This document shows, piece by piece, positions 13,113-44,195 of a stretch of 44,225 bases of DNA. Under the pieces are notes generated by a model, which was given only the letters and a program-made list of their open reading frames with translations, was not told the origin of the DNA and searched no databases. The position numbers were made by a program, and so were the translations under genes. The first letter of the stretch is position 1; the number at the start of each line of letters is the position of its first letter. The DNA comes from Thermoflexus hugenholtzii JAD2 (GTDB lineage Bacteria; Chloroflexota; Limnocylindria; Limnocylindrales; Limnocylindraceae), in assembly GCA_945862225.1 (NCBI GenBank), contig CAMAXG010000004.1:1-44225 (forward strand). The letters run 5' to 3'.

Positions 13113-14269
13113 CCCGCCCAGCGCGAGCTCTCAGGCTCGGTGCCGTCGGGCTGATCACCGCCCTCTCGCTGCTCCTCCACGCCCAAGCGGCGCGCCTCCC
13201 CGTCGACTTTGATGAGGATGATTACATGCGCGCAGGCCAGATCTTGGCCGATGAGATTCGCACCGGAAACCCTGCGATCCTGCTTGAGAACAACTACCGG
13301 ATTGAGCATCCACAGTTGGTGAAGATGCTGATCGCCTCGGTGATGCTCGGCATGGAGCCGATCCAGCGCATTCCAGAGCTATCGGTGACGTCTAGCGCTA
13401 ATGACCTACTTCATCGCCCAACGCTCGCTGCAGTGCGACGTATGGAGGTGGCGTTCGGTGTACTCGCCGTCGCTGGGCTTGCACTCGTCAGCCCGGTTGC
13501 GGGGATCCTTCTTGCGACGAGCACCTGGGCTGTTAAGTACACCAGCCAAGTGATGCTCGAATCGGTGCCGCTCCTCTTCTCACTGCTGGGCGTGGCGCTC
13601 TACGAGTTCGCACGCGGTATCTCTAGCGCACGTCGCCGACGTCTCGCCTACGTGGCCTCGGCAATTGGCATTGGCCTCGCTGTCGGCGCCAAGTATCCGT
13701 ACGCCATCGCCGGCCTCGCGATCGTCGTCGATCGCTTCCGTCGCACGCGACGCGGCGAGACACTCAGGCTCAAGGATGCGCTTGGCTGGAGCGCTATCGC
13801 TGCGCTCGCCTTCTTTGCGGTGAATCCGTATCTTTGGAGCGACCCGATCGGTCGGCTGATCGCCAGTGCCGCCTACCATCCCGCCTACACAACAAGCGAG
13901 CAGGTGCAGTCCACCGGATTTCCAATGTGGCAGCAGCTGATCTGGCTCATGCAATCGGTGCCGTGGCACGACGCGCAAGAGTTGTTCTTGATAAAGATTG
14001 ATTTCATCGTGCAGTTTGAATTCTGGATGAAGTTCGACTTCTGGATGCTGCCACTCGCGCTCATTGGCCTTGTGCCACTTGCACGCAAGCGACCGGTCTA
14101 TGCAATCTGGCTTGGACTCGGCGCCGTTGCGCTGTTCTTCTGGCCAACCAAGTGGCCACAGTATCTGCTCACCATTGCGGTGCCGTACGCGCTCGCTGGC
14201 GCCGCTGGCATTGCGCTGCTGTCGAAGCTGGCCATCGCACTCCCGCGCCGAATCTTCAAGGGACGCTAA
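13109..14269 (+). CDS. GT-C-like (PMT/ArnT-type) multi-span membrane protein, putative glycosyltransferase
   Basis: GTG start at 13109 overlaps the pgl stop (GTGA). Many TM segments and an acidic motif FDEDDYMRAG in the first extracytoplasmic loop, as in GT39/GT-C enzymes. Confidence 0.6.
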   Translation: MTRPARALRLGAVGLITALSLLLHAQAARLPVDFDEDDYMRAGQILADEIRTGNPAILLENNYRIEHPQLVKMLIASVMLGMEPIQRIPELSVTSSANDLLHRPTLAAVRRMEVAFGVLAVAGLALVSPVAGILLATSTWAVKYTSQVMLESVPLLFSLLGVALYEFARGISSARRRRLAYVASAIGIGLAVGAKYPYAIAGLAIVVDRFRRTRRGETLRLKDALGWSAIAALAFFAVNPYLWSDPIGRLIASAAYHPAYTTSEQVQSTGFPMWQQLIWLMQSVPWHDAQELFLIKIDFIVQFEFWMKFDFWMLPLALIGLVPLARKRPVYAIWLGLGAVALFFWPTKWPQYLLTIAVPYALAGAAGIALLSKLAIALPRRIFKGR

Positions 14270-15023
14270 TCCCCCACTTCGCACCAAGCGCGCGGTGTGC
14301 CGCCTGCAGCTCACTCGGTGAAAGCGACCTTCCCCAAATCACCACTTCCATGATGGTGCCGACGAAGTATTTCGCCGTGCCCGCAACGAACATCCCGCCG
14401 ATCCAGTTCATGCTCTCTGTCGTGGTGATGTTAAACGACGTCTCCGCTCCTCCGTTGTACTGAAAACCGTCAGCCGCTCCTGTGGCGGTGCGCACGGTGG
14501 TGATGGTCAGTCCGGTGACAGTACGAGCGGTTGTCGCGCCAACCGATTGACCATTGCTGTATATCCGTAGGCGACCGAACTCCATCGCGATGCCAGAGAA
14601 GCGCGTCCGACTCCCCATGAGTGGATGGCTGAGCCCATCGTTTCTTTGGCGAAAGACGATCATCACCGTCATCGGTTCCAAGGGGATACTGGTTGGTAGC
14701 TGCACCGCCGCACCGCTGAACTGCAGGCCAGTCACTCCCGCTGTCATCGTTGGGTAGGGTTGAAATGGCCCTGCGCTTACGGGCGCATGTTGTGCTTGGC
14801 CCGACTTGTCGAACCAGTAGCGAAGACGCGGCGAGAGCGCCATGGTTCCCGCCTCTGCGGCGTCGTACCAGAGGAGGAGCCCACTGTTGACGCCACCCGG
14901 GGCACTCCACGTGCCAGAGCTGAGCGATAGGTCCAGCCGAGGCGACCAGGCGGCACCCGAGGTTGCAAGGGCGATGAGTGCGAGCGGTACGGCAACTCGT
15001 AGCCACGAACGGTGCCGACTCAC
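14256..15023 (-). CDS. secreted or anchored LamG/concanavalin-A-like domain protein
   Basis: GTG start at 15023 overlaps the upstream gene stop. N-terminal TM/signal (LRVAVPLALIALATSGAAW), then a LamG-like pattern (GLLLWYDAAEAG...YWFDKSGQAQHA...IMEVVIWGRSLSPSEL). Confidence 0.7.
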   Translation of the reverse strand: MSRHRSWLRVAVPLALIALATSGAAWSPRLDLSLSSGTWSAPGGVNSGLLLWYDAAEAGTMALSPRLRYWFDKSGQAQHAPVSAGPFQPYPTMTAGVTGLQFSGAAVQLPTSIPLEPMTVMIVFRQRNDGLSHPLMGSRTRFSGIAMEFGRLRIYSNGQSVGATTARTVTGLTITTVRTATGAADGFQYNGGAETSFNITTTESMNWIGGMFVAGTAKYFVGTIMEVVIWGRSLSPSELQAAHRALGAKWGISVP

Positions 15024-15865
15024 TCTGGCCCCCAGCGCAGCGGGAGTGAGATGGTCGCATTGGCGGCAGTGATACTCCCGAGGAGGGTTACTTGGATCTG
15101 ACACTCGCTCGCGGTGGCGCCCGCAGAGAGTGACGCGAGGCGCCCCGTTGCAAGATTCGCCGCACTCCACGCGGCGGTGAAGAGGTCAGCGGAAGCGGTC
15201 CAGGTTGTGCTGCCAACTGGGCGACAGGTGCTGGTAAGTCGCAGTGATCGGGCGATGCCACTCGTTGCGATCGGCGCGAATCGGTCCGGATCAATGCGCA
15301 GCGTATTGGTGGTGCCAGCACACTCGCCCGCCACCCCCGTTGGGCACGGCGTGAGCGTGAGCGTCCACGTTGCCCGCCCTCCCGGAAGGAGCTGGCCGTG
15401 CGCATCGGCACCCACCAACGTTGGGCCGCTCATCTCCACGCGCGCCCCTAACGCGGAGGTGATGCCCACGTTGACGTTCCTCCCGGCACTGAACTGTGCC
15501 GCAACAAGGTCGAGCGGAAGCGAGGCGAGGAGGCCGGTGGGGATGACAGCGGCGAGCCCACCAAGCACCGCCGCGTCGGAGATACGCTCGGCGTCGGGGC
15601 TGAGGCTGGCGTCGCCCTGTGTTCGACGCCACCCCGCACCCCGCTGAATGACGCGGTGTAGAAGTAACTGACCATCACTCGGTCGCTCCATCAACACCAC
15701 ATCGCCCACCTCACCGCCTCGCCATAGTCGCGCTGTAAGGACCAGATCACCATCGCGAATGCTTGGCGACATTGAGTTCCCTGAAACGACGAGTATCCGC
15801 AGTCCGGCAAGCTGCGTTGCAAGGACAAGTGTGAGCGCGGCGGCACCCCAGCTGGCCCGACTCAT
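15020..15865 (-). CDS. SipW-like (S26B/ER-type) signal peptidase with a C-terminal extracytoplasmic extension
   Basis: SGNSMSPSIRDGDLVL (catalytic Ser box), LLHRVIQ (His instead of Lys general base), GDASLSPDAERI (GD box). About 130 further residues follow a second hydrophobic segment. Confidence 0.82.
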   Translation of the reverse strand: MSRASWGAAALTLVLATQLAGLRILVVSGNSMSPSIRDGDLVLTARLWRGGEVGDVVLMERPSDGQLLLHRVIQRGAGWRRTQGDASLSPDAERISDAAVLGGLAAVIPTGLLASLPLDLVAAQFSAGRNVNVGITSALGARVEMSGPTLVGADAHGQLLPGGRATWTLTLTPCPTGVAGECAGTTNTLRIDPDRFAPIATSGIARSLRLTSTCRPVGSTTWTASADLFTAAWSAANLATGRLASLSAGATASECQIQVTLLGSITAANATISLPLRWGPE

Positions 15866-16479
15866 TGCGTCTTGTTGCGTGCCTCAAAGGTGAAGGTCGC
15901 GGCGACCGAAGAGTCGGCTCCTGTTGTCGCACTCGCTGGCAGCGTGAAGGTGAACGTGTAGGCCGCACTCTTTGCCGTCACGCCAGTCACCGCGCCCCCA
16001 TTCTGCGAGCTCCATGCTGCGCCGATCGGTGCTGCAAATGAGTCGTACGCCGAGAGCCCATTCAGCGCTCCCGTATAGAGCGTCTCTGCACTCCCGCCGC
16101 CAATGCTGCGGCTGATCGTGACCTGCAGCGAAGCGCCGAGACCCGATGCTGCAGTTGACGTTCCAGTGAGATCACTCCACAGCGCAATCTCGGTGAGGTC
16201 CGATGGCGTGGTTACCGTTGATTCGTTGAGCACCGTGATGGTCTGCGTGAAGGTTGCGCCTGGCCCAATGTTGGTGAGCGTTGCGCCACCGAAGGTGAGC
16301 TGCTGCACACCGTCCGTACTCAACGAGACGACTCCAGAGGTTGCCCCGCCAGTGACTGGCGCCGTAGCGGTAAACGCGGCGCTGGTTCGACCAACAGTCG
16401 CCCCAATCACCAGGGCGCCCGCCACGACCACGGCCCGCACGGCGTGACGCGACGTCAAGAAAGTTCGCTCTGTTTGCAT
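15862..16479 (-). CDS. TasA/CalY (camelysin)-like secreted protein with SipW-type signal peptide
   Basis: 205 aa; signal region VVVAGALVIGATVGRTSAAFTATAPVTGGATSG; Gly/Ser/Thr-rich beta-type body; ATGA overlap with the signal peptidase gene. Confidence 0.72.
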   Translation of the reverse strand: MQTERTFLTSRHAVRAVVVAGALVIGATVGRTSAAFTATAPVTGGATSGVVSLSTDGVQQLTFGGATLTNIGPGATFTQTITVLNESTVTTPSDLTEIALWSDLTGTSTAASGLGASLQVTISRSIGGGSAETLYTGALNGLSAYDSFAAPIGAAWSSQNGGAVTGVTAKSAAYTFTFTLPASATTGADSSVAATFTFEARNKTQ

Positions 16480-16562
16480 ACCGACTCCTACGAGCGGGTT
16501 ATTGGGCGGGTCGTAATCCTATGGGGAGGGGCGTACTGGCGGGGTATCCCCGTGAAGGCAGA

Positions 16563-17420
16563 TCAGCCGAAGCGGCCCGAGACGTAATCGGCGGTGAGCT
16601 GCTGCTGTGGCGCGGTGAAGATCTTCCCCGTCTCGCCCTGCTCCACCACATAGCCGGCACGGTCGTCGCCCATGGTGAGGAAGACGGTGTAGTCCGAGGC
16701 GCGTGCCGCCTGCTGCATGTTGTGCGTCACGATGACGATCGTGTAATCGCGAATCAGCTTGCGCATCAGCTCTTCGATCTGCAGCGTGGACTTTGGGTCC
16801 AGTGCCGAGCAGGGCTCATCCATGAGAATGACCTCGGGCCGAATAGCGATCGCTCGCGCAATGCAGAGGCGCTGTTGCTGCCCGCCCGAGAGGGAGAGCC
16901 CAGGTTGATCGAGCTTATCTTTCACCTCGTCCCAAAGGGCAGCGGCGCGGAGGCTCTCTTCAACGAGGGCATCTATGCCCGTAGTCTCGCCGAGAAGGCG
17001 GAGGCCAAATGCCACGTTCTCGAAGATGGACTTTGGGAACGGGTTCGGTTTCTGGAAGACCATGCCGACGCGGCGGCGAAGATCAATCACATCGGTTGCG
17101 CGAGCGTGCACAGAGGTGCCCTCGAAGGCAATCTCCCCCTCCATACGGAACCCAGGCACCAGATCGTTCATCCGATTGATGGAGCGGAGCAGCGTGCTCT
17201 TGCCGCAGCCGGAGGGGCCGATCAGCGCCGTGACCTTATTGCGCGGAATGGCGAGGCTTACCTCGCGCACCGCACGGAAGCCGCCATACCAGCAGCTGAC
17301 GTTCTCAAGGAGTAGGGCGGGATTTTTCGATGATGCGGAGGTGGCCTCGGTAGCACCCGATGGGGCGCTCGCGCCGATCTGGCTCACTGAAGGCTTGGTC
17401 ACTGGCTCACGCTCGTTCAT
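16563..17420 (-). CDS. pstB: phosphate ABC transporter ATP-binding protein (copy 1)
   Basis: [66 protein letters not shown]: canonical PstB. Confidence 0.97.
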
Positions 17421-17436
17421 CGACACAGACGGTACC

Positions 17437-18303
17437 TCACCACTGGATCGTGCGCGACAGTCGCGCACGAAGAATTACTGCCACGAGATTGAGCAGGAAC
17501 ATGAGCACAAGGAGCACGAGGATTGCCGCGGCCGAGATCTCCTGGAATGCCGCCTGTGGGCGACCCGCCCAGTTGAAGATCTGGATCGGCAGCACGGTGT
17601 ACTTATCTTCAAAAGGATTGACGGGCACGAAGGTCACAAAGGTGACGGCCCCAATAAGAATCAGCGGTGCGGTCTCGCCGACCGCACGGCCAACAGCCAA
17701 CACGATGCCGGTAAGGATTCCAGGCGCGGCGGCGGGGAGGAGCGCTCGGCGCACCATCTGCCAGCGTGTTGCACCAAGTGCATATGCCGCCTCGCGCTGG
17801 CTAGGTGGCACGGCACGAATCGCCTCCATGCTTGAAATAATCACGACGGGAAGAATGAGCAGGCTCAGCGTGAGTGCAGCTGCAAAGACCGTGCGCCCAA
17901 GGCCGAGGAGCCGTACAAAAAGCGCCAGGCCGAAGATGCCGTACACGATCGAGGGGACGCCGGCGAGGTTGGAGATGTTGATGCGCAACAGACGTGACCA
18001 GCGACCACGCCCCGCGTACTCCTCCAAGTAGATTGCCGCGGCGACACCGATTGGGAAGGTCATGATCGCAACGAGCGTTGTCACCCAGAGCGTGCCGACG
18101 AGCGCTGGCAGAATGCCAGCCTTGGCGGGGATGCGGCTCGGTGCCGAAGTGAAGAACTGCAGATCAACACTGCTCCCACCGCGTGCAACCACATCGATCA
18201 GCAGTGCCACAAGCGTCACAAGGCTCGCAAAGATCGCGAGGAAGGCCAGCAAGCCGAACAGCGCATTGGCAACTTTTCGACGCGTGGTCGTCTGGCTGCT
18301 CAT
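17437..18303 (-). CDS. pstA: phosphate ABC transporter permease PstA (copy 1)
   Basis: [76 protein letters not shown]. Confidence 0.96.
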
Positions 18304-19223
18304 TCGTATACGTTCCGATAGCGCGCTACCAGCCAGGCGCTGATGAGGTTGAGCGTGAAAGTGATCGCGAAGAGCGTGGCGCCTACGGCGAAGAGCGCCT
18401 TGAACTGGATGCTCTCAGTTGGGGTGTCTCCAAGGCTGATCTGCACGATGAACGCGGTCATCGTTTGCACCGATTCCGTTGGGTTCAACGTCAGCTGAGG
18501 ATTGGTGCCTGCCGCGAGCACTACGGCCATCGTCTCGCCAACGGCGCGACTCATTGCCAGGATCACCGCCGCAGCGATACCAGATAGTGCGGCCGGCAGG
18601 AGTACTCGCCGCACCGTCTCCCAGCGCGTTGCACCCAACGCATAGGAACCCTCTCGCAGGCCACGCGGCACGGCCCGCAGTGCGTCTTCAGTAAGCGAGG
18701 CGACGAGTGGGAGAACCAAGATGCCAACGACAATGCCCGCCGAAAGTGCCGAAAAGGTCCCAAGGTCAGGGAGAATCGTGGCCTTCAGCAGCGGAGTGAT
18801 CACCGTGATCGCAAAGAAGCCGTACACGATCGTTGGGATGCCGGCCAAGATCTCAAGAATTGGCTTGATGATTAAACGAACCCGCTGGCTTGCGAACTCG
18901 CTCATCCAGACCGCGGCCAGCACACCGAGCGGTACCGCAAGAACGAGCGCAATGAAGGCGATCAAGAGCGTGCTCGTAACCAGTGGAATGACACCGAACG
19001 CGTACGGAAGGATGGATGCCGACCAACGAGTTCCGGTGAAGAAGTCGACGGGGGGGACTTCAACGAAGAAGAAGAGCGCCTCGACGACGAGGACAGTGAT
19101 GATGCCAACGGTTGTAACGATCCCAACGGCTGCCGAAGCTCGAAGGAGGAATTCAATGAGCCCCTCGCCTCTGCGAGTGGTCGCGGCGGAGTCGGGGCGA
19201 TGAACTGTTGATACGCCTGCCAC
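18300..19223 (-). CDS. pstC: phosphate ABC transporter permease PstC (copy 1)
   Basis: PLGVLAAVWMSEFASQRVRLIIKPILEILAGIPTIVYGFFA, ALGATRWETVRRVLLPAALSGIAAAVILAMSRAVGETMAV. Confidence 0.96.
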   Translation of the reverse strand: MAGVSTVHRPDSAATTRRGEGLIEFLLRASAAVGIVTTVGIITVLVVEALFFFVEVPPVDFFTGTRWSASILPYAFGVIPLVTSTLLIAFIALVLAVPLGVLAAVWMSEFASQRVRLIIKPILEILAGIPTIVYGFFAITVITPLLKATILPDLGTFSALSAGIVVGILVLPLVASLTEDALRAVPRGLREGSYALGATRWETVRRVLLPAALSGIAAAVILAMSRAVGETMAVVLAAGTNPQLTLNPTESVQTMTAFIVQISLGDTPTESIQFKALFAVGATLFAITFTLNLISAWLVARYRNVYE

Positions 19224-19284
19224 AAACCCTCCTCCCGCTAAGCCGCTCTCCCTCGTAGGCGGCGATCCTACCCCTAGAAGTGCC

Positions 19285-19313
19285 GACCCGGGGGCTGATG
19301 GGGCCCCCGGGTC
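19285..19313 (-). terminator. strong hairpin between pstS1 and pstC1
   Basis: GACCCGGGGGC / GCCCCCGGGTC, perfect 11-bp arms with a 7-nt loop, in the pstS1-pstC1 gap. Confidence 0.75.
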
Positions 19314-19353
19314 GTTTGAGCGTGCGTGAGGGCTCAGCGCCCGCTCAGGATCC

Positions 19354-20349
19354 TTACTTGAGTGCAGCCTCTAGCTTCGCCTTCACGGAGGCCTCGTCTG
19401 CATCATTCAGGCCGATGTAGCCAACTTCCGTCGAAAGCTCGACCGTATTCTCCAGGAAGAATCGGAAGAACGCTGCGACCTCAGGTCGTGCAAGTGCAGC
19501 GACTGATGCATATACGAAGAGTGGGCGCCCGAGTGGCGAATAGGTGCCGTCGTTCGCCGCTTCGGCAGACGGTGCGGCGCAACCCTCGCCGCCATCGACT
19601 TCAACTGCCCGAACCTTGTCGGCATTCTCAGTCACATACGCAAGGCCGAAATAGCCCAACGCGTACTGCGAGCCGCTGATGCCGGTCACCAGCACGTTGT
19701 CATCTTCGGATTGGGTGAAGTCAGATCGCGAACGCTTCGTCTCGCCGTTGATCTCTTCCGTGAAGTAGTCAAAGGTTCCGGAGTCGGCGCCAGGGCCATA
19801 GAGGTCGATCTTCTCGGCTGGCCAGCCGGCGCGAACATCTGCCCAGGTCTCAACGACCGAACCGAGATCCCAAATTGCCTTGAGTTCGTCGGTGGTGAGG
19901 CAGTCAACGAAGGTGTTCTCCTTGCTCACCACAACGGCGAGTGCGTCAATCGCAACCTTCAGCTCAATATATTCAATGTTGGCGTTCTTGCACTTTGTTG
20001 CCTCAGAAAGTTCGTCATCTTCGGTGCCAGCAACGCCATCTGGTCCTGGCTTGTCACTCGTTTTGATTGGGCGTGACGCGTTGGATGCGTCCGTTTCGCC
20101 GGCGCAGAACTTCTTAAATCCGCCGCCCGTGCCCGAGAAGGCAACGGTGACCTGCACGCCGGGGTTCGCGTTCTGGAACTCCTCGGCAACGGCCTCGGCG
20201 ACTGGATACACGGTGCTCGATCCGTCCATGGCGATCTCGCCGGTCAGGGCTACGGTCGACGCCGACGGACTGGCTGCTGAACCGCCACAGGCGGCGATGA
20301 ACAGGGCGGCCGCGGCGGCCACGCTGAGCTTCTTCATGGTGCTCTTCAT
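19354..20349 (-). CDS. pstS: phosphate ABC transporter substrate-binding lipoprotein PstS (copy 1)
   Basis: Lipobox-like FIAACGGS; MDGSSTVYPVAEAVAEEFQNANPGVQVTVAFSGTGGGFKKFCAGETDASNASRPIK. Confidence 0.95.
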   Translation of the reverse strand: MKSTMKKLSVAAAAALFIAACGGSAASPSASTVALTGEIAMDGSSTVYPVAEAVAEEFQNANPGVQVTVAFSGTGGGFKKFCAGETDASNASRPIKTSDKPGPDGVAGTEDDELSEATKCKNANIEYIELKVAIDALAVVVSKENTFVDCLTTDELKAIWDLGSVVETWADVRAGWPAEKIDLYGPGADSGTFDYFTEEINGETKRSRSDFTQSEDDNVLVTGISGSQYALGYFGLAYVTENADKVRAVEVDGGEGCAAPSAEAANDGTYSPLGRPLFVYASVAALARPEVAAFFRFFLENTVELSTEVGYIGLNDADEASVKAKLEAALK

Positions 20350-20409
20350 GGTACTCCTCTCATCTACATCGCTGGCTCTTGGTCCAGCCGAGAGAGAGTG
20401 GCAGGGGAA

Positions 20410-20448
20410 TGTAAGCGGAATGTTATCGCCAGATTGGTGCCACGTAAT
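20410..20448 (-). promoter_or_regulatory. PhoP/PHO-box-like direct repeats upstream of pstS1
   Basis: Plus-strand TGTAAG (20410), TGTTAT (20421) and CGTAAT (20443), i.e. minus-strand ATTACG..ATAACA-N5-CTTACA on an 11/22-bp period. Confidence 0.55.
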
Positions 20449-20468
20449 TCTCGGCTAGGATGCTCGGC

Positions 20469-21053
20469 ATGGCTATCCCGCGTCGACCCTGGCTCCACGT
20501 CATTGCTGGCTGCATGAGCAGCGGTAAGACGGCCGAGGTCGTCCGCCTCCTCACCCGCCGTCAGATTGCAGGCCAGAGCGTGCTCCTGATCACACCAGCC
20601 CGCGACACGCGCGTTGCCCCGGGTGAAGTTGTCAGCCGAACGGGTACCCGATTCCCGAGCGTTGTAGCGCCTGACGCTGCCGCCATCCGCAACGAGATTG
20701 CCCGTATCAACCCTGATGCCGTGGCAATTGAAGAGGCGCAGTTCTTCGGCCCAGACCTTCCCGCGATCATTGAGGAGATTGTTGCGGCGCCCCGAACGGT
20801 CATCGTCAGCGGGCTCGACCAAGACTTTGCTGGGCGACCGTTCGCGACGATTCCAGAGCTACTAGCTCTTGCCGACGAGGTGACAAAGCTCTCAGCCATC
20901 TGTGTCGTTTGCGGCAACGAGGCCACAAGAACGCAGCGCCTTCGTAATGGAAAGCCTGCGAGCGCCAATGACGAGTTGATCGTGATTGGTGGCATGGCGG
21001 GCGACGATACATACGAAGCGCGCTGTCGCGCCTGCCATCAGGTTATTGCCTAG
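20469..21053 (+). CDS. tdk: thymidine kinase
   Basis: HVIAGCMSSGKTAEVVRLLTRRQIAG, AIEEAQFF, VIVSGLDQDFAGRPFATIPELLALADEVTKLSAICVVCG, C-terminal CRACHQ. Confidence 0.95.
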   Translation: MAIPRRPWLHVIAGCMSSGKTAEVVRLLTRRQIAGQSVLLITPARDTRVAPGEVVSRTGTRFPSVVAPDAAAIRNEIARINPDAVAIEEAQFFGPDLPAIIEEIVAAPRTVIVSGLDQDFAGRPFATIPELLALADEVTKLSAICVVCGNEATRTQRLRNGKPASANDELIVIGGMAGDDTYEARCRACHQVIA

Positions 21054-21066
21054 TCATTCAACCGAG

Positions 21067-22215
21067 CTAGTAGAGCGGGATCTCCAAGGTCAACACACTC
21101 CAGCTCTCTCCCTTGCGATCGAGGTCCGCCGGCCAATGCAACTCAGCAAGCGCCAAGACAGCGCCATCCACGTACTCGTTCTTGAACTGGTTCGTGAGTA
21201 CCCCGGCAGAGACTGCAGTTGCCACGGCGTTGGTGATGCCATCGATATCGATCCAGAGTACGCCGTTAGCAGCCGGCCAGAGTTGGTTGTTGAGTGCATT
21301 GACACTCCATACCAACGTCTCTTGATCTTGATCGGATGTGCCGATTCCGAGGAACAGTGCAGCGCAATCTTCGATGAAGTCGCGACAGAACGCGAGGCCC
21401 TCTGCTAGGGCAACAAGCGATGCCGCTGCGGCAATCTTTGCGTTGTCAGATGTGAGCGCCGAAGCGTGTGCCCAAATCGCAAGGCCGGTGTCGAAGGTTG
21501 TGGGCGTGATGGAAAACTCTACGAGCCCCTCCACACCAACGCTCGCTCCAGTGACGAGGTCTGGACCCTGAACCAGGCGAGGCCAGCCGTCAATCGAACT
21601 GACAATTGCAGCTGCGTAGGTGCCGTCAAGAATTGGAATGGGATCAAACGACGAAGAGAGGTCGGTGGCATAGGTCAGGGAGAGTGACGCAAGATCCACC
21701 CCCGCCGCCGAGAGGGCGGCAAGCGCCGTGGCGGCATCGCCCGGCAGGCCATGAACGAAGATGTTCTTGCCCGCGAGGTCAGCAATCTCAGTGATGCCAG
21801 AGGTGACTGGCGTCACGAGGCGCCAGTCAGACTGCTGCGCGAGCCCTGCGATCAGCATAAGGTCGCTGCCTGCCTCTCGCGCGCTGAGCGCAGCAGCTGG
21901 CGAAGCCACATAGAGATCGACGGTCGATTCATCCTCCGCGCCTGCGAATGGGTCGACCCCGACCGTGGGTGTTGCAATGCTCAATGTGATTTCAGCAGCA
22001 GCAAGTGCCTCCTCTTGGGTCAAGAACGCAAAGGGGGCGTGCAGACCGCTTGGAGCGCCAGGTAGGTGATACACGACGCTCATCGGCTGGCTTGGAATTA
22101 GCGCTCCAGCGATCGACGAGGCGCTTGGCGTAGCCTCCCCTGGGACGCCAGGGCGACAGGCGGCGACCAACAGCAAGGAGAGCGAGAGCGCCAACGATCG
22201 GCGAATGAGGCTCAA
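21067..22215 (-). CDS. putative substrate-binding lipoprotein, NMT1/SsuA-like
   Basis: Lipobox [13 protein letters not shown]-like layout ([40 protein letters not shown]...[11 protein letters not shown]). ATGA overlap with pstB2. Confidence 0.6.
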
Positions 22216-23102
22216 CCGAATCGCCCTGCCACGTAGTCTTCGGTCAGTTGCTGCGTCGGAGCCGTGAAGATCTGTGGCGTGAGGCCGCTCTCCACGAGGT
22301 ATCCGCCACGGTCTTCACCCATGCTGAAGAACGCTGTCGAATCGGAGACGCGCGATGCCTGCTGCATGTTGTGCGTCACGATGACGATGGTGTACTCCGT
22401 TCGAAGCTCTCGAATCAACTCTTCAATCTTGAGTGTGGCGATCGGATCGAGGGCGGAGCAGGGCTCATCCATCAAGATCACTTCTGGGCGAACAGCAATG
22501 GCGCGCGCAATGCAGAGGCGCTGCTGTTGGCCACCGGAGAGTGAGGTGCCAGGCTCATTGAGTTTATCTTTCACCTCGTTCCAGAGTGCAGCCTTCTTCA
22601 GTGACTCTTCCACGATTCCTGCAATTTCACCCTTGCTTGAAGCGCCCGCGAGTCGCAGCCCGCTGGCCACATTGCCAAAGATCGACATCGTCGGAAATGG
22701 GTTCGGCTTCTGGAAGACCATGCCGATCACGCGTCGAACCCGAACAGGGTCGACAAGAGGCCCATAAACATCGATGCCATCTAACGTGATTGTGCCCTTT
22801 ACGGTTGCGTTCGGGATCGTTTCGTGCATGCGGTTGAGGGCGCGAAGGAGCGTGGACTTTCCACAGCCTGATGGGCCAATCAGCGCGGTGACCTTCTTTG
22901 GCTCGATGTTCAGGGACACATTGTTGACCGCGCGGAACTTGTCGTAGAACACCTCGAGGTTCTGCAGGTTGAGGCTCCCCTCCGACGCCTTGGCAGCCGC
23001 ACCTGCAGGCCGAGCCGCGGGCGATGCCGTCTTTGACGCGTTAGTCGACCCAACAGTGTTCGCTTCTGAGCGCTTCATCTTCTTCCCCTTCTCTTCTGCC
23101 AT
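22212..23102 (-). CDS. pstB: phosphate ABC transporter ATP-binding protein (copy 2)
   Basis: [70 protein letters not shown]. Ala/Lys-rich N-terminal extension; the start could be 23078. Confidence 0.96.
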
Positions 23103-23104
23103 GA

Positions 23105-23980
23105 CTATGCCACCCGGTTGTTGACGGTGCGGAACCGAACCAGAACGTTAAGTGTGAGTGCGATTACGAGAAGGACGAGTGCCGTCGCCCATGCTTGGCC
23201 GATTAGCAAGCTATCGGGCGAACTCGAATATCGATAAATTACGATTGGCATGGCGTTCATCGTTGAACCAAAATTGAGAATCTCTGTGTCGTTGGTGCCC
23301 TTTGCGGTAAGTAGCAGCGGTGCTGTCTCGCCCAGACCACGACTGACGGCGAGAACAACGCCAGTAAGCAGACCAGATGCGGCCGTTCGGCAGGTAACGA
23401 AGATCGTTGTTTTCCAGACCGGAATGCCGAGTGCGAGCGAGGCTTCTCGCACGCCGGCAGGAACGAGTCGAATCACCTCTTGGGTTGTGCGCATCACGAT
23501 AGGAATCATGAGCACAGAGAGTGCCACGATCGCTGCGTACCCAGAGAATCCGAGGGCCGGGACCACTACGAGGAAGGCGAAGAGTCCGGCGATGATACTC
23601 GGGGTGCCAAGCATCACATCGATGAGCAGCTCGCCAGCGGAAGAGACCCGCGGTGAGGCGAACTCGTTGAGGTAGACCCCGCCGGCAATGCCAACTGGCG
23701 CGGCAAGAATGATGGATGCAATCGTCAGCTGCAGCGAGCCGATGATGGCGTTTGAGATTCCAGGCTCGATGTCTAGGGGGCTGTTCACGATGAGCTGCGA
23801 CGTGAGGAATGGCAGTCCGTTTGTGATGATGTACAAAATGAGTCCGATGAGTGGAACCACGGCAATGGCGGCGGTCACAAACATGATTCCGCGCATAAAG
23901 CGGTCTGCGCGCCTGCGTCGAGCATCGCGCCCTGAGGGGGCTTTGACCAGGTCAGCAGCCGTAAATCGCAGCAAGCTCAC
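23105..23980 (-). CDS. pstA: phosphate ABC transporter permease PstA (copy 2)
   Basis: [67 protein letters not shown]. Confidence 0.94.
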
Positions 23981-24969
23981 GATGCCTGCCCCCCTCCGCG
24001 CGCCGCACGGCGAACGAGGAGACGAATAGCGAGGCTGAGCAAGAATGTGACCGCGAAGAGGCAGATACCGAGTGCGGCAAGGGCGCCTGTCTCGGTTGGG
24101 GTGCTGGCCTCGGCATAGTTTGATGCGATCTTTGACGCAATCGTTTGGCCAGGGAGGAAGAGACTAGAGGGGATCCCCTCCGCGTTGCCAATCACCATGG
24201 TTACGGCGATGGTCTCGCCGACTGCGCGACCAAGGGCCAGCAGCACCGCGCCGGTGAGCCCGACCCGTGCCGCTGGAAGCACGACATGACGAATAGTCTC
24301 CCATCGGGTTGCCCCCATGCCAATGAACCCTTCACGGAGTGATTGCGGTACCGAGCGAATGACTTCACGGCTGATGGCAACAACCATCGGAATGATCATG
24401 ATGGCGAGCACCATGCCGGCGCGGAAGACACTCTGCGCAGCGGGTGCTTCTGGATCTTCCGCGAGCCAAGGGAAGATTCTGCCGAGGGTGCTTGCGACCC
24501 ACCACTCCACCGAGTCCCGAAGGCGAATCGAGAGGTCGCCTGCCGCCCAGAGTCCGATCACCACGGAAGGGATCGCGGCCATGAGCTCGACGAGGAAGGT
24601 GAGTGGTGCAGCGAGGCGTCGCGGCGCGAACTCAACGAGGTACACCGCGGCCAAGATGCCGACTGGTGCCGCGATCAGGATCGCGATGAGTGCCGAGACC
24701 ACGGTCCCCCAGATCACTGCGAACGCACCGTAGTTGCCAACGACGCTGCCGTCGGGCTGCGTTACCTCCCCCGCCCAGCGGTCACCAAAGACGAAGGAGA
24801 GTGGAGTTTGAATGTTCCATACGGGAAGCGAAGAGACCACCATCGAAAGGACCACTCCAGCCAGGAGGATCCCCGCGACAACCACAGCAGAGCCGAAAAG
24901 AATGCGGAAGAGGGCATCCACCCGGATGCCTCGCCCGAACCCGAAACGATTCTCCTTGGTAATTGCCAT
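23977..24969 (-). CDS. pstC: phosphate ABC transporter permease PstC (copy 2)
   Basis: GILAAVYLVEFAPRRLAAPLTFLVELMAAIPSVVIGLWA, MGATRWETIRHVVLPAARVGLTGAVLLALGRAVGETIAVTMVIG. Start 24969 (MAITKENRF); the longer ORF runs through a hairpin. Confidence 0.95.
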   Translation of the reverse strand: MAITKENRFGFGRGIRVDALFRILFGSAVVVAGILLAGVVLSMVVSSLPVWNIQTPLSFVFGDRWAGEVTQPDGSVVGNYGAFAVIWGTVVSALIAILIAAPVGILAAVYLVEFAPRRLAAPLTFLVELMAAIPSVVIGLWAAGDLSIRLRDSVEWWVASTLGRIFPWLAEDPEAPAAQSVFRAGMVLAIMIIPMVVAISREVIRSVPQSLREGFIGMGATRWETIRHVVLPAARVGLTGAVLLALGRAVGETIAVTMVIGNAEGIPSSLFLPGQTIASKIASNYAEASTPTETGALAALGICLFAVTFLLSLAIRLLVRRAARGGGQAS

Positions 24970-25005
24970 CTCTTTTGGTTTTCCTCCGACTCCTGTAGAC
25001 AGCGC

Positions 25006-25037
25006 ACCAGCGGGGAGCCTTTCGGCCCCCCGCTGGT
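25006..25037 (-). terminator. strong hairpin between pstS2 and pstC2
   Basis: ACCAGCGGGG-AGCCTTTCGGCC-CCCCGCTGGT, 10-bp arms plus an inner GCC/GGC stem, just downstream of the pstS2 stop. Confidence 0.72.
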
Positions 25038-25068
25038 TCACCATTAAGCGCCCAAGCGCGACGTTAGA

Positions 25069-26421
25069 TTACGGCCAGAGAACCGTGCCGTCGTACTTGA
25101 TTGTCTTCAACTGAGCCACCGCCGCGTTTCGAGCGGCGGTAGGAAGCGCTGCGTATCCAACGATGCCGTCTGATACGTAGAGCTTGCTCTGACCGGTCGT
25201 CAGCGCCCAGTTAAGGAACGCGATGAGACCCTGCACCTGGGCCTTCGAGGCACCGGTGCCGCCAGATACCCAGCTCTTGTAAACCATCAACCATGAGTAC
25301 CCGACAATCGGATACGAGCTGGTCCCAGCAGCAAAGACTGGCTGGACGTAGCTCGTCGAAGGATTGATTGGGTCCTCGGTGGCAACCGCAGCGGTCATTG
25401 CTGCCGTTGCAGCTGTTGCGCTCGGTAGCACGTAGTTGAACTTTCCACGATTTGCACCTGAAGTGAACTTCGACTTCGTTTCAAGCGCAGCCGTCTTTAG
25501 GCCAGTGGCGGCAGCATATGAAAGCTCAACGTATCCGATTGAGCGGTTCGTCGCTGCAATGTTTGCAGCAACACCCGCATTTCCATCCCCACCGATGATT
25601 GCGCGAGCACCCTTTGCGGTGCGCATCGCACCGAAGTAGGTGCCTGGCTGCGTGCTGGCTGGCTTGAACGTACCCGCAGTTGCACTAAAAGCGGTGCTTG
25701 AATTGCTGCTGAAGTTTGACTCGTAGCCGCAGTTCTTCTGTGCTGCGGTGGCCGACTTGCCCAAATACGATGCAAAGATGAACGTGGTTCCGGAGCCATC
25801 GCTTCGGCCGTTCAGAATGATCGTGGAGCTGGTCAAGTTGGTAATAAGTGGGTTTAGCGCCTTGATCTTTGGATCATTCCACTTTTTGATCGTGCCGTTG
25901 TAAATGTCGCAGAGCACTGCGCCATTGAGTCGCAGCGTGGCGGCAACCGTACGGCGCGAGCTCGCAGAGACCCTCTGCTTGAGGCCGTCGAAGCGATATG
26001 CAACGGCAACTGGACCGGCGGTTGCCGGAATGACGATGTAGTCATTGGCGGTGCCGAGCGCCGTATCAATGGTTGTTCGGTTCGTTGAGGTCAGGACGCT
26101 GTCGGTGCCAGAGAACATCTGGGTGTCCTTCATCATCTCTGATCCCGCGAAGTTGGAGATGCCAGTGCTCGAACCACCACCGGTGTAGTCGAGAACAAAC
26201 TTGGAGGACGAGCTGGTACCAAAGCGGGAAGGGTTGACGTAGTTTCGGTAGTACTCAAACCACTTCGTGTACTGGTTCCACGGGAAGGTTGCACCCGAGC
26301 CGGTGATCTTGCCGAATCCGGCATCGATCGTTGGCGCTGAGGCGCTTGCCGTACCGGCAAGCCCCGCCACAAGCACCAAGCCCATGAGCAGGCTGGTTGT
26401 GATCTTCGTAAGGTTTCGCAC
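25069..26421 (-). CDS. pstS: phosphate ABC transporter substrate-binding protein PstS (copy 2)
   Basis: GTG start after GGAG; signal peptide GLVLVAGLAGTASASA without lipobox; GKITGSGATFPWNQYTKWFEYY (PstS N-terminal motif). Confidence 0.92.
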   Translation of the reverse strand: MRNLTKITTSLLMGLVLVAGLAGTASASAPTIDAGFGKITGSGATFPWNQYTKWFEYYRNYVNPSRFGTSSSSKFVLDYTGGGSSTGISNFAGSEMMKDTQMFSGTDSVLTSTNRTTIDTALGTANDYIVIPATAGPVAVAYRFDGLKQRVSASSRRTVAATLRLNGAVLCDIYNGTIKKWNDPKIKALNPLITNLTSSTIILNGRSDGSGTTFIFASYLGKSATAAQKNCGYESNFSSNSSTAFSATAGTFKPASTQPGTYFGAMRTAKGARAIIGGDGNAGVAANIAATNRSIGYVELSYAAATGLKTAALETKSKFTSGANRGKFNYVLPSATAATAAMTAAVATEDPINPSTSYVQPVFAAGTSSYPIVGYSWLMVYKSWVSGGTGASKAQVQGLIAFLNWALTTGQSKLYVSDGIVGYAALPTAARNAAVAQLKTIKYDGTVLWP

Positions 26422-27511
26422 TGTAACTCCTCCGCGGCGTTGCGCCGAACCGCCGATCTTTTGTGGGGCGCGGGGCAAGAGTGACGCAGCGATGTATACG
26501 GAACGCTAACGGTGTGTAAACGCTCTGTGAATTTTTGGTAACACCGTGCTTGGGGCGCCTTGGGGCCCTCTTTGGCCGCACGGACCGAATCGCCCCCCAC
26601 TCCGCCACCAGCACGGCACCGAGGATCAGCGCCCCACCAACCAGCTGAACTGCGGTAAGACGCTCGTTGAAGAGGTAGCCGGCCGCCACGATCGTGAAGA
26701 TCGGCTCCACGGTACTGATCAGCGCCGCACGGGCGGCCCCAAGACGCTGCGCCCCTATATAGAAGGCACCGATCGGAATGATCCCCGCAATGGTGGCGAC
26801 GCCAATGATCGGCAGGAGTGCGTCATCAGGGATCGGGGTTGGCAGCAGTTCGCGCCCAAGTGCGGCGCGCAGCAGCAACATGCCGACCGCGGTGCCGAAG
26901 AGGCTGACCGGAATGGCGGCGAGTGGCGAGGTGCCTCCGCGACCCGATGCGCCGGTACCGCTCTTGGTTTCGCCGCCGAGACGCGCGGCGAGAATGATGT
27001 AGCAGCTATAGATGATCGGCGAGGCGATGCCGAGCACCAGGCCGATCGGCGCGGGCTCATTCGCTTCAGGGATGCCACCCACGCCGAGCACGACCCCGGT
27101 GGTGGCGATCGCGAGGGCGATCCACGGGCGTGGCCCCGACGGTGCGTGGGCAAAGAAGATCGAGAGCACGGCAACGATGGCTGGGAAGGCATAGGTCATG
27201 AGGCCAGCGAGTGAGGCGTCAATCCAGGTGAGGCTCCCAAAGTAGGTAGCAGCGTTGGCAGTGAAGAAGAGCCCGATGGCAAAAGAACGGAGCGCACGCT
27301 CGCGGGTAAGGCCACGAAGGGCCGCGCGCCCAGCTGGGAGCGCGACGACGATGGCGCCAAGGATGAGCGCGGCGAGCAGGTGGCGCCAGACCAGCAGGTC
27401 GAGCCAATCAAATCCAGTCGGGTAGATCGCTTTCGCAAAGAGTGAGCCCGATCCATAGCCGATCGCCGAGACGACGACCAACAGAATCCACGGGAGTCGA
27501 TTTGAACGCAT
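26255..27511 (-). CDS. EamA/DMT-family transporter with a C-terminal tail overlapping pstS2
   Basis: MRSNRLPWILLVVVSAIGYGSGSLFAKAIY...; ten hydrophobic segments. The ORF continues through the pstS2 promoter and about 167 nt into pstS2 in another frame. Confidence 0.82.
   Translation of the reverse strand: MRSNRLPWILLVVVSAIGYGSGSLFAKAIYPTGFDWLDLLVWRHLLAALILGAIVVALPAGRAALRGLTRERALRSFAIGLFFTANAATYFGSLTWIDASLAGLMTYAFPAIVAVLSIFFAHAPSGPRPWIALAIATTGVVLGVGGIPEANEPAPIGLVLGIASPIIYSCYIILAARLGGETKSGTGASGRGGTSPLAAIPVSLFGTAVGMLLLRAALGRELLPTPIPDDALLPIIGVATIAGIIPIGAFYIGAQRLGAARAALISTVEPIFTIVAAGYLFNERLTAVQLVGGALILGAVLVAEWGAIRSVRPKRAPRRPKHGVTKNSQSVYTPLAFRIHRCVTLAPRPTKDRRFGATPRRSYSAKPYEDHNQPAHGLGACGGACRYGKRLSANDRCRIRQDHRLGCNLPVEPVHEVV
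26493..26542 (-). promoter_or_regulatory. PhoP-box-like array of five hexamers at 11-bp period upstream of pstS2
   Basis: Minus strand reads GTTACC-AAAAA-TTCACA-GAGCG-TTTACA-CACCG-TTAGCG-TTCCG-TATACA; hexamers sit at 26537, 26526, 26515, 26504 and 26493 on the plus strand. Confidence 0.6.
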
Positions 27512-41060: not shown

Positions 41061-42101
41061 CTAACGCGCCTCTTCAAATAGCCGACGTGGATTATCCGTC
41101 ATCATCGCGGCTCCCTGCTGGAGCGGCACCCCGTGGCGTGCCAGCCTCGGCAAGAAGAACTCCACGATATGTCCGTATCCTGGCCCGCCGTTGGCGCGCA
41201 GCAGGATCTTCATGAAGATGTCCTGCGACATCAGGACGCGGTCGCCGAAGCCGGCCTGTACGAGGCGCGCGATGTTGCGTGCGTCATCTTCGTCGCTGGT
41301 GCAGGGCGCCTGCTGGTCGGCGTAGAAGACTTGCATGCCGATCATGTCGTACTGCAGGTAAATGCCGCGCTTTAGGAGGCGTGTCTGGTATTCGTAATCG
41401 TCACCGCTCGGGTTGGAGTGACAGAGCACCACGCTCTGCATCGGCACACCTTGCGCGGCAACAAAGTCGAGGACCTCGTCACCAAGGCGATACCAGCCAG
41501 GCATGTGGATCTGAATCGGCACACCCGTCTCGCGCTGCGCGAGGCAGGCGCCGGCGAGCGAGTTGCGCTCGCGGCTGGTGAACGGCTGGCCAACGAAGAT
41601 CTCGCCGATGAAGCCAGCACGGATGTTCGTCCCTTGAGCGCCGACGGTGAGGTCGCGCACGATGCGATCTGCGATCTCGCGCACGCTGCCATCGAGGTGC
41701 TCTGGCCCGTGCACCGGGTCAAGGAAGATGCCGCTCCCCATCACCACGTTCAGCCCCGATTCGCGGCTGATGCGTGCGAGCCCCTCGGGGTCACGCCCAT
41801 TCCCCTTGTCGGCGCAGGCCTCCAGAATCGTGCGGCCACCCTGGGCGGCGAAGCGCTTCACCTCAACGATGGCGGACTCAATATCATCGAGCGCGCAGTT
41901 GTCCTTATTGAGGAATGGGTCGTGTCGCAGCTCCCAGATGTTGCTGATAGAGACCTTCTCGTCAACGAGCTCCTTGGATCGAGCCGAGTCGTCATAGGGC
42001 GGATGCCACCACGGCGTGACAATGTTGAAGAGGTGCTCGTGCGTGAGGGTGAGCCCCATCTCGGTGCTCTCGATCTCACCAGTGACCGTTTGAATCTTGA
42101 C
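41061..42101 (-). CDS. phosphotriesterase-family metal-dependent hydrolase (paralog 1, most divergent)
   Basis: LTLTHEHLFNIV, RAGFIGEI, PIQIHMPGW, VVLCHSNPSGDDYEYQ, MSQDIFMK: PTE-family metal ligands. GTG start at 42101 (VKIQTVTGEIES) by homology to paralog 2. Confidence 0.9.
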   Translation of the reverse strand, partial: VKIQTVTGEIESTEMGLTLTHEHLFNIVTPWWHPPYDDSARSKELVDEKVSISNIWELRHDPFLNKDNCALDDIESAIVEVKRFAAQGGRTILEACADKGNGRDPEGLARISRESGLNVVMGSGIFLDPVHGPEHLDGSVREIADRIVRDLTVGAQGTNIRAGFIGEIFVGQPFTSRERNSLAGACLAQRETGVPIQIHMPGWYRLGDEVLDFVAAQGVPMQSVVLCHSNPSGDDYEYQTRLLKRGIYLQYDMIGMQVFYADQQAPCTSDEDDARNIARLVQAGFGDRVLMSQDIFMKILLRANGGPGYGHIVEFFLPRLARHGVPLQQGAAMMTDNPRRLFEEAR

Positions 42102-42108
42102 CACGTGG

Positions 42109-43149
42109 TTAGCTTGCCTCTTCAAAGAGCCGACGTGGGCTCGCGGTCATCATGCTGATTCCCTGCTCGAGCGGCACGCCGTGCCGGGCGAGTCGCGGCA
42201 GGAAGAACTCGACCAAATGGCCGTAGCCTGGGCCGCCGTACGAGCGCAGCAACGTCTTCAAGCCGATGTCTTGCGACATCAGCACCTTCTCGCCGAATCC
42301 ATCGCGCACCAGGCGTGCAATGTTGCGCGCATCGTCTTCGTCGCTCGTGCATGAGGCCTGCTGATCCGCGTAGAAGACCTGCATGCCAATCATGTCGTAC
42401 TGCAGATAGGCGCCGCGCTTGAGCAGGCGTGTCTGATATTCGTAGTCGTCGCCGCTTGGGTTCGAGTGGCAGAGCACGATGCTCTCCATCGGCACACCGT
42501 GTGCCGCGCAGAGGTCGAGCACCTCGTCGCCGAGGCGGAACCAGGCGGGCATGTGGATCTGCATCGGTAGGTGCGTCTCGCGCTGGGCAATGCACGAACC
42601 GGCAAGTGACTTGCGCTCTCGTGCCGTGAACTCACTGCCCACACCAATCTCACCAATGATTCCCGACTTGACCTTGGTGCCGGGTGCACCCTCCGTGATG
42701 TCGCGAATGAGATCGTTGGCGATGTCGCGTTCGCTCTTGGCGTCGTTCGCTTCGGACTGTGATCCGTCAAGGTAGTAGCCCGTTCCCATGATGATGTTGA
42801 GCCCGGTTCGTTTACTGATCGTGGTAAGCCCCTCAGGATTACGACCATCGTTATAGCCACTCGTCTCGATGATCGTCTTGCCGCCCTGGTCTGCAAACCG
42901 CTGCACCTCTTTGATGGCAAGTTCAACGTCTTGAACAATGAGGTTGTCCTTATTGATGAATGGATCGTGCTTGAGCTCCCAGATGTTGCTGATGGATACC
43001 TTCTCGTCAACGAGTTCGCGCGATCGTGGTAAATCGTCGAGCGGCGGATGCCACCATGAGGTCACGTCGCCGAGTAGGTGCTCGTGCGTGAGGGTGAGCC
43101 CCATCTCGGCGCTCTCGATCTCGCCGGTGACCGTCTGGACCTTGACCAT
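42109..43149 (-). CDS. phosphotriesterase-family metal-dependent hydrolase (paralog 2)
   Basis: Same ligand set as paralog 3 (THEHLLGDV, SGIIGEIG, MQIHMPAW, VLCHSNPSGDDYEYQ, MSQDIGLK). Confidence 0.9.
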   Translation of the reverse strand: MVKVQTVTGEIESAEMGLTLTHEHLLGDVTSWWHPPLDDLPRSRELVDEKVSISNIWELKHDPFINKDNLIVQDVELAIKEVQRFADQGGKTIIETSGYNDGRNPEGLTTISKRTGLNIIMGTGYYLDGSQSEANDAKSERDIANDLIRDITEGAPGTKVKSGIIGEIGVGSEFTARERKSLAGSCIAQRETHLPMQIHMPAWFRLGDEVLDLCAAHGVPMESIVLCHSNPSGDDYEYQTRLLKRGAYLQYDMIGMQVFYADQQASCTSDEDDARNIARLVRDGFGEKVLMSQDIGLKTLLRSYGGPGYGHLVEFFLPRLARHGVPLEQGISMMTASPRRLFEEAS

Positions 43150-43154
43150 AGTGA

Positions 43155-44195
43155 CTAGCTTGCCGATTCGAAGAGTTGGCGCGGGTTCGCCGTCATCATC
43201 GCGATCCCCTGCTCGAGCGGCACGCCGTGCCGAGCGAGTCGTGGCAGGAAGAACTCCACCATGTGCCCGTAGCCTGGGCCGCCGTAGGAGCGCAGGAGGC
43301 TCTTGAGGAAGATGTCTTGCGACATCAGCACCTTCTGACCAAAGCCGTCACGCACCAGGCGGGCGATGTTGCGCGCGTCGTCTTCATCGCTCGTGCACGA
43401 CGCCTGCTGGTCGGCGTAGAAGACCTGCATGCCGATCATGTCGTACTGCAGATAGGCACCGCGTCGTAGAAGACGTGTTTGATATTCGTGATCATCGCCG
43501 CTCGGATTGGAGTGGCAGAGCACGATGCTCTCCATCGGTACGCCGCGCGATGCGCAGAAGTCGAGGACCTCGTCGCCGTAGCGGAACCAGGCCGGCATGT
43601 GCACCTGCATCGGCAGATGCGTTTCGCGCTGCGCGATGCATGCGCCAGCGAGTGACTTGCGCTCACGCGCGGTGAACTCACTCCCCACGCCAATCTCACC
43701 AATGATTCCCGACTTCACCTTGGTGCCGCGCGCACCTTCGGTGATATCGCGGATCAGTTCGTTGGCAATGTCATGCTCACTCTTGGCGTCATTCTCTTCA
43801 GGCTGTGATCCGTCGAGGTAGTAGCCCGTTCCCATGATGATGTTGAGCCCGGTTCGTTTGCTGATCGTGGCAAGCCCTTCGGGGCTGCGGCCGTTGCCGT
43901 CGGCGCTCGTCTCGATGATCGTCTTGCCACCCTGATCAACAAAGCGCTGCACCTCTTTGATGGCAAGCTCAATGTCTTGCATGGAGCAGTTGTCTTTGTT
44001 AATGAACGGATCGTGCTTGAGTTCCCAGATGTTGCTGATGGAGACCTTCTCATCGACGAGTTCGCGCGATCGCGGCGAATCATCGAGTGGCGGATGCCAC
44101 CAGGAGAGGACATCGTTCAAGAGGTGTTCGTGAGTCAACGTCAGACCTAGGTCTGCCGAGCTGATTGGACCAAGAACGCTCTCAACCTGCTTCAT
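43155..44195 (-). CDS. phosphotriesterase-family metal-dependent hydrolase (paralog 3)
   Basis: THEHLLNDVLSWWHPP, SGIIGEIG, MQVHMPAW, VLCHSNPSGDDHEYQ, MSQDIFLK. Confidence 0.9.
   Translation of the reverse strand: MKQVESVLGPISSADLGLTLTHEHLLNDVLSWWHPPLDDSPRSRELVDEKVSISNIWELKHDPFINKDNCSMQDIELAIKEVQRFVDQGGKTIIETSADGNGRSPEGLATISKRTGLNIIMGTGYYLDGSQPEENDAKSEHDIANELIRDITEGARGTKVKSGIIGEIGVGSEFTARERKSLAGACIAQRETHLPMQVHMPAWFRYGDEVLDFCASRGVPMESIVLCHSNPSGDDHEYQTRLLRRGAYLQYDMIGMQVFYADQQASCTSDEDDARNIARLVRDGFGQKVLMSQDIFLKSLLRSYGGPGYGHMVEFFLPRLARHGVPLEQGIAMMTANPRQLFESAS

Follow-up and report, generated by a model that had tools for sequence, protein, structure and literature searches.

Operons that pair SipW with TasA are well known in Bacillus. 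The tapA-sipW-tasA operon of Bacillus subtilis sets a dedicated ER-type signal peptidase beside a TasA-family protein, in overlapping genes, and features an Ala|x-Phe cleavage site, a PG motif and a C-terminal FEA strand. TasA polymerises by means of a donor strand (PMC9674648), TapA likewise donates a strand in B. subtilis (PMC10151520), and an aromatic residue at P2', which makes a poor LepB site, is the mark of SipW-processed TasA (PMC10269814). The sipW-tasA-capP-calY genes of Bacillus cereus encode SipW with a substrate set, two camelysins and CapP among them, and in that system polymerisation is under the control of a minor, chaperone-like component (PMC13082335). The bundling pili of the archaeon Pyrobaculum are TasA-related donor-strand fibres as well (PMC9674648); we liken them to the present system by description, and they are archaeal and made by a different gene set.

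We describe here a cassette of this general kind in a freshwater Limnocylindria MAG of the Candidatus Aquidulcis group (Chloroflexota). The assembly amounts to 1.11 Mb, and the window, by which we mean the whole 44,225-nucleotide stretch of DNA that was analysed, is its contig C4. All features given below lie on the minus strand. Reading from 16479 down to 14256, a span of 2.2 kb, the genes encode a TasA/camelysin-like secreted protein of 205 aa (15862..16479, ATG start; signal 1-34, mature from A35-F36; alignment A1), an ER-type, S26B-like signal peptidase of 281 aa with a fused C-terminal beta domain (15020..15865, ATG start; alignment A2) and a LamG/ConA-like secreted protein of 255 aa (14256..15023, GTG start; signal ending A24|A25-W26-S27). 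A preliminary description of this DNA had proposed the same three-gene cassette, and the open reading frames, peptidase boxes and overlaps all bear it out. The 4-nt overlaps that it reported throughout (ATGA and GTGA) are found in the window and in the closest relatives, but spacing varies across the genus, from -4 to +10 nt at the first junction and from -4 to +26 nt at the second.

The cassette shares with the B. subtilis operon the features listed above, but it has no separate TapA, its peptidase carries an extra beta domain and has no second membrane helix, a LamG protein is added as the third product, and the host belongs to the Chloroflexota. The two camelysins and CapP of B. cereus have as their counterparts a single TasA-like protein, a single LamG protein and the domain fused to the peptidase, for which a role like that of the B. 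cereus minor component is our proposal. The closest sequence bridge is provided by other families of Limnocylindria, in which a peptidase of the same type, SipW-like, lies beside a TasA-like gene with a PF12389 match; these peptidases are about 170-220 aa long and have two hydrophobic helices, no C-terminal domain and no LamG partner of the cassette's family. No precedent for the fused peptidase-beta domain or for the LamG partner was found in the open-access literature, and the published accounts of these freshwater Chloroflexota that we checked mention neither TasA nor a signal peptidase.

The first gene product had been called TasA/CalY-like, with a SipW-type leader. The leader, VVVAGALVIGATVGRTSA|AFTA, is present, but curated models did not support the family name directly: neither PF12389 nor TIGR04088 matched the 205-aa protein in profile searches, PF12389 rose above its cut-off in none of 19 genus genomes (best genus E-value 0.23), the best genus match to NF046066 (E = 0.0078) did not reach that model's cut-off of 450 bits, and a profile search of the PDB from the genus alignment alone returned nothing. 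Homology by way of order relatives did support it. TIGR04088 matches some of the order relatives' proteins, seven of eight peptidase-adjacent proteins in another family of the order score above the PF12389 gathering threshold, and 17 of 33 other-family genomes with a related peptidase have, by coordinates, a PF12389 match within about 1 kb of it. SipW-TasA pairs, as judged from sequence, are already present in other families of the class. The HMM of the eight order-relative proteins matches all 13 Aquidulcis cassette proteins with E-values from 1.3e-8 to 4e-4, the best of the shuffled controls being 0.5, and hhalign aligns the two groups over 148 columns with a probability of 96.6 and an E-value of 4.8e-10, a score that none of 100 column shuffles reached.

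When genus and order relatives were joined in one profile and compared with the PDB, TasA was the sole significant match (8aur, a fibre entry, E = 4.3e-6; 5of1, E = 2.6e-5), the next being QatB at E = 0.24. The alignment starts at the mature N-terminus of TasA, AFND, and spans the conserved PG motif; a further, weak match lies at the C-terminal FEA. The predicted structure of the monomer has a mean pLDDT of 71, with blocks from residue 71 onward at 75-95, and Foldseek places TasA first (5of2/5of1, E = 1.4e-4), these being the sole matches below 1e-3; the fold match is modest, with a TM score of 0.40. In this model the mature N-terminal segment is unstructured, which is compatible with a free donor strand. 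Because of the bridge through the relatives' PF12389 proteins, the HMM, hhalign, the joint-profile match in the PDB and the Foldseek result, the 205-aa protein is best read as a divergent TasA-family protein. The preliminary description was prepared to give up its reading if no camelysin/TasA model matched and the genes were not syntenic in relatives; direct searches indeed gave no such match, and synteny was found.

In four other-family loci (L070:6653-7983, L072, L069 and L066), SipW-like peptidases adjoin secreted proteins with leaders of the A-Y-F-T-D type, and some of these neighbours carry RTX-like GGNGKD repeats. SipW-type substrates in the class are a wider set than TasA-like proteins.

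The peptidase consists of an N-terminal membrane helix (residues 3-20) and a catalytic domain extending to residue 111 (together 15533..15859), as judged from alignment A2 and the model. Its conserved boxes contain S31 (GNSMSP), H70 (LLLHRV) and D85/D91 (GDASLSPD), that is, a Ser-His catalytic pair with no Lys, as in ER-type enzymes of family S26B. The best model is TIGR02228, the archaeal type (E = 8.5e-9), at 35.5 bits against a cut-off of 51.85 bits and thus below it; NF046067 gives 13.8 of 190 bits, also below its curated cut-off, and the best matches in the PDB are human SEC11A/C (E = 3e-4). The peptidase gene adjoins genes for SipW-type substrates in 13 genus genomes, and peptidases of this type are syntenic with TasA-like genes across the order, so that the earlier assignment to the ER type with Ser/His boxes stands. 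An ordinary LepB is encoded elsewhere in the genome (132 bits, contig C19), and therefore the cassette peptidase is additional to the cell's LepB. Contig 47 of the same genome also has a small S26-type peptidase directly after a gene resembling nickel superoxide dismutase (L109:198-977), which is probably a pair of a Ni-SOD and its maturation protease.

Two features escaped the preliminary description: the domain fused to the C-terminus of the peptidase, and a cleavage motif common to the three proteins. In the TasA-like protein the motif is A34|A35-F36-T37 (16369..16380), with Phe at P2'; it is invariant in all 13 genus sequences despite synonymous codon changes, and A34 and F36 are invariant in the other-family relatives too. 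The linker between the protease and the C-terminal domain has A122-A123|Q124-F125-S126 (15488..15502), in a flexible stretch that is modelled with low confidence (pLDDT below 50 for residues 112-129). F125 is the sole invariant residue between positions 109 and 152 (13/13), and A123 is kept in 12 of 13, being Thr once. Thus Ala|x-Phe-Thr occurs in 13/13 TasA-like proteins, Ala|x-Trp in 13/13 LamG proteins and Ala|x-Phe in 12/13 peptidase linkers. The Ala at P1 and aromatic P2' of a SipW-type signal are therefore in place, although the TIGR04088 model itself is not matched. Since the two substrates have the Ala|x-Phe/Trp site in common, and an aromatic P2' is refractory to LepB, a single enzyme of a single specificity plausibly acts on both, and perhaps on itself as well.

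LamG domains are found in enzymes as well, a point against the reading of the cassette that is favoured below. The third gene product matches PF13385 at 27.7 bits against a gathering score of 27.6, a weak match that covers only the C-terminal part of the profile; the domain is nevertheless matched by 13/13 members at E <= 0.1, and the A-x-W motif is invariant in 13/13. The LamG-like identity first given to this protein is thus retained, just above the Pfam cut-off. No relation was found when the LamG proteins were compared with TasA profiles.

Within the genus sample of 19 genomes, 13 carry the triad, always in the same order, with one of them (G016) having it split over two contigs. A fourteenth (G003) has a LamG gene that is cut by a contig end, and absences in G002, G005 and G013 were left out of the count (contig end, or pgl locus not found). 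One flank is formed by a convergent pgl, with or without a glycosyltransferase-like gene, and the other varies by genome, being pstB, a phosphate-type binding-protein gene or tdk. In G015 and G017, pgl directly adjoins tdk with no triad between them, which makes a clean empty site; the gap is 56 bp in G015, and the tdk frame of G017 is broken by unread bases. These empty sites (L112:2259-2315 and L113) could be useful for dating gain or loss. Synteny of the triad, which the preliminary description had put forward as a check, is thus borne out: carriers have the genes together, and the triad is retained or lost in its entirety. For the TasA-like and LamG genes, dN/dS is about 0.05-0.15 in genus comparisons, and for the whole peptidase gene it is about 0.14-0.3, with 0.5 for the C-terminal domain alone in one low-divergence comparison. 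All three genes are under purifying selection, and, with dN/dS this low and the genes recurring next to each other in unchanged order, the triad is more than a chance arrangement.

The TasA-like gene is preceded by a ribosome-binding site, AGGAG (16485..16489), in a conserved upstream block. This belongs to an intergenic leader (16480..16562; GTACG ... TAGGAT ... ribosome-binding site) that is partly conserved regardless of the upstream gene (alignment A5), and an own promoter in the leader is possible; a consensus scan of the leader found no sigma-70 site. In the window, the peptidase and LamG genes both start inside the preceding gene, and therefore they are probably translated by coupling, and in smaller amounts than the TasA-like protein.

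Taking from the sequences the gene order, the TasA-family homology, the ER-type peptidase, the common site motif and the conservation as a block, we infer that the cassette encodes a TasA-type surface-fibre system in minimal and self-contained form, with a TasA-like shaft, a LamG adhesin and the C-terminal domain of the peptidase as base or nucleator, and we would put the probability of this reading at roughly 60%. All three proteins would pass through Sec, and the dedicated ER-type peptidase, not LepB, would cleave both pre-proteins, TasA-like and LamG, at Ala|x-Phe/Trp. Cleavage would expose an N-terminus on the TasA-like protein, which would then fill the groove of the following subunit as a donor strand, the way it happens in TasA fibres. 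The product of the first gene, with its strong ribosome-binding site, would be the shaft subunit and the LamG protein a minor adhesin, and the C-terminal domain of the peptidase, either membrane-tethered or self-released, would act as base or nucleator in the role of TapA or CapP.

The C-terminal domain allows another explanation. It comprises about 155 beta-rich residues (127-281 in the model; 15023..15487), has invariant C214 and C255, and takes the place of the usual second membrane helix: the Aquidulcis peptidases are without that helix, whereas their order relatives have a strong second hydrophobic one and no such domain. A search of 400 Chloroflexota genomes found the domain in the genus only, and a pattern scan of genome contigs found it only in the Aquidulcis group; weak matches elsewhere in the phylum (E = 0.002-0.008) were dismissed as chance, the sequences being unrelated proteins or broken frames. 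The domain could be a substrate-recognition or docking module that is never cut and presents precursors to the active site, with the Ala-x-Phe of the linker being structural or a leftover. We regard this as a serious possibility, though somewhat short of even odds, and it is compatible with the fibre itself. It would fit the lack of detectable sequence homology to TasA: kinship was not significant by HMM, hhalign or shuffles (hhalign brings the motif and PG into register with the TasA-like protein, but about 10% of shuffles score as well), and a Foldseek search with the whole peptidase did not return TasA. It also fits the topology, for a linker that follows a single membrane helix does not exit the membrane in the manner of a signal peptide. 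Against it, F125 is invariant and A123 nearly so in an otherwise poorly conserved linker, in the same pattern as in both substrates; starting with the strands that flank PG, strands and helices follow one another in the domain model just as they do in the TasA-like model, one for one; and cognate peptidases in the order work without any such domain.

Conversely, the peptidase gene may encode a self-processing polyprotein, which would cut its own linker at Ala|x-Phe and release a minor, TasA-like subunit to nucleate or anchor the fibre, with enzyme and base made in equal numbers. We hold this to be rather doubtful. If the peptidase has a single membrane helix, self-cleavage is uncertain, since the linker then does not come out of the membrane the way a signal peptide does. 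If the polyprotein reading were true, a single protein would combine signal peptidase and fibre base, and this would amount to a new principle of assembly.

A different view would dispense with the fibre and have the products act as secreted soluble or cell-bound monomers, a camelysin-like protein and a lectin working separately in polysaccharide scavenging or in a surface coat, with the peptidase as a maturase only. Binding or processing of glycans is common among LamG/ConA domains, the genome is a small one of 1.1 Mb from lake plankton, and our structure model is of a monomer, all of which would suit such proteins. However, few residues are invariant in both families, and the cleavage site and the PG motif belong to these few; wherever the contigs permit a verdict, the three cassette genes occur only together in the genus; and TasA, the nearest solved relative, polymerises by donor strand (PMC9674648). 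We therefore consider monomers unlikely and continue to favour the surface fibre.

The location directly downstream of pstSCAB, to which the preliminary description drew attention, holds for this window but not for relatives, in which the left neighbour changes. Since it does so, we rejected pst linkage as a functional clue, and the pst neighbour is incidental. That the triad is part of the phosphate regulon, serving phosphate capture or binding at the cell surface, is very improbable: the cassette does follow pstB or a phosphate-type binding-protein gene here and in some relatives, but it is retained with a divergent tdk upstream in more distant genomes and in the close relative L084, which keeps the leader too, and the promoter scan for a sigma-70 consensus gave no site. 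In the adjoining part of the window (16563-26478), two phosphate-type ABC operons lie next to each other around tdk; relatives differ in whether they have one of the operons or both and in how these are arranged, and therefore this is a spot of rearrangement beside the cassette. At 41061-44195 the window also has three tandem open reading frames of about 346-354 aa with near-identical starts (VQTVTGEIES-EMGLTLTHEHL...), as if a gene for a phosphotriesterase-like amidohydrolase had been triplicated in tandem.

If the fibre reading is right, the TasA/SipW system, which has been studied mainly in Bacillus, extends to streamlined, uncultured freshwater Chloroflexota. It would then show how far a fibre system can shrink, to a shaft, an adhesin and a peptidase with its own base domain in 2.2 kb, and would make it possible to study the coupling between a dedicated signal peptidase and fibre initiation in a single protein. 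The genomes that carry the block, set beside those that lack it at the identical position, would be a clean natural case for asking what use a planktonic cell makes of such fibres.
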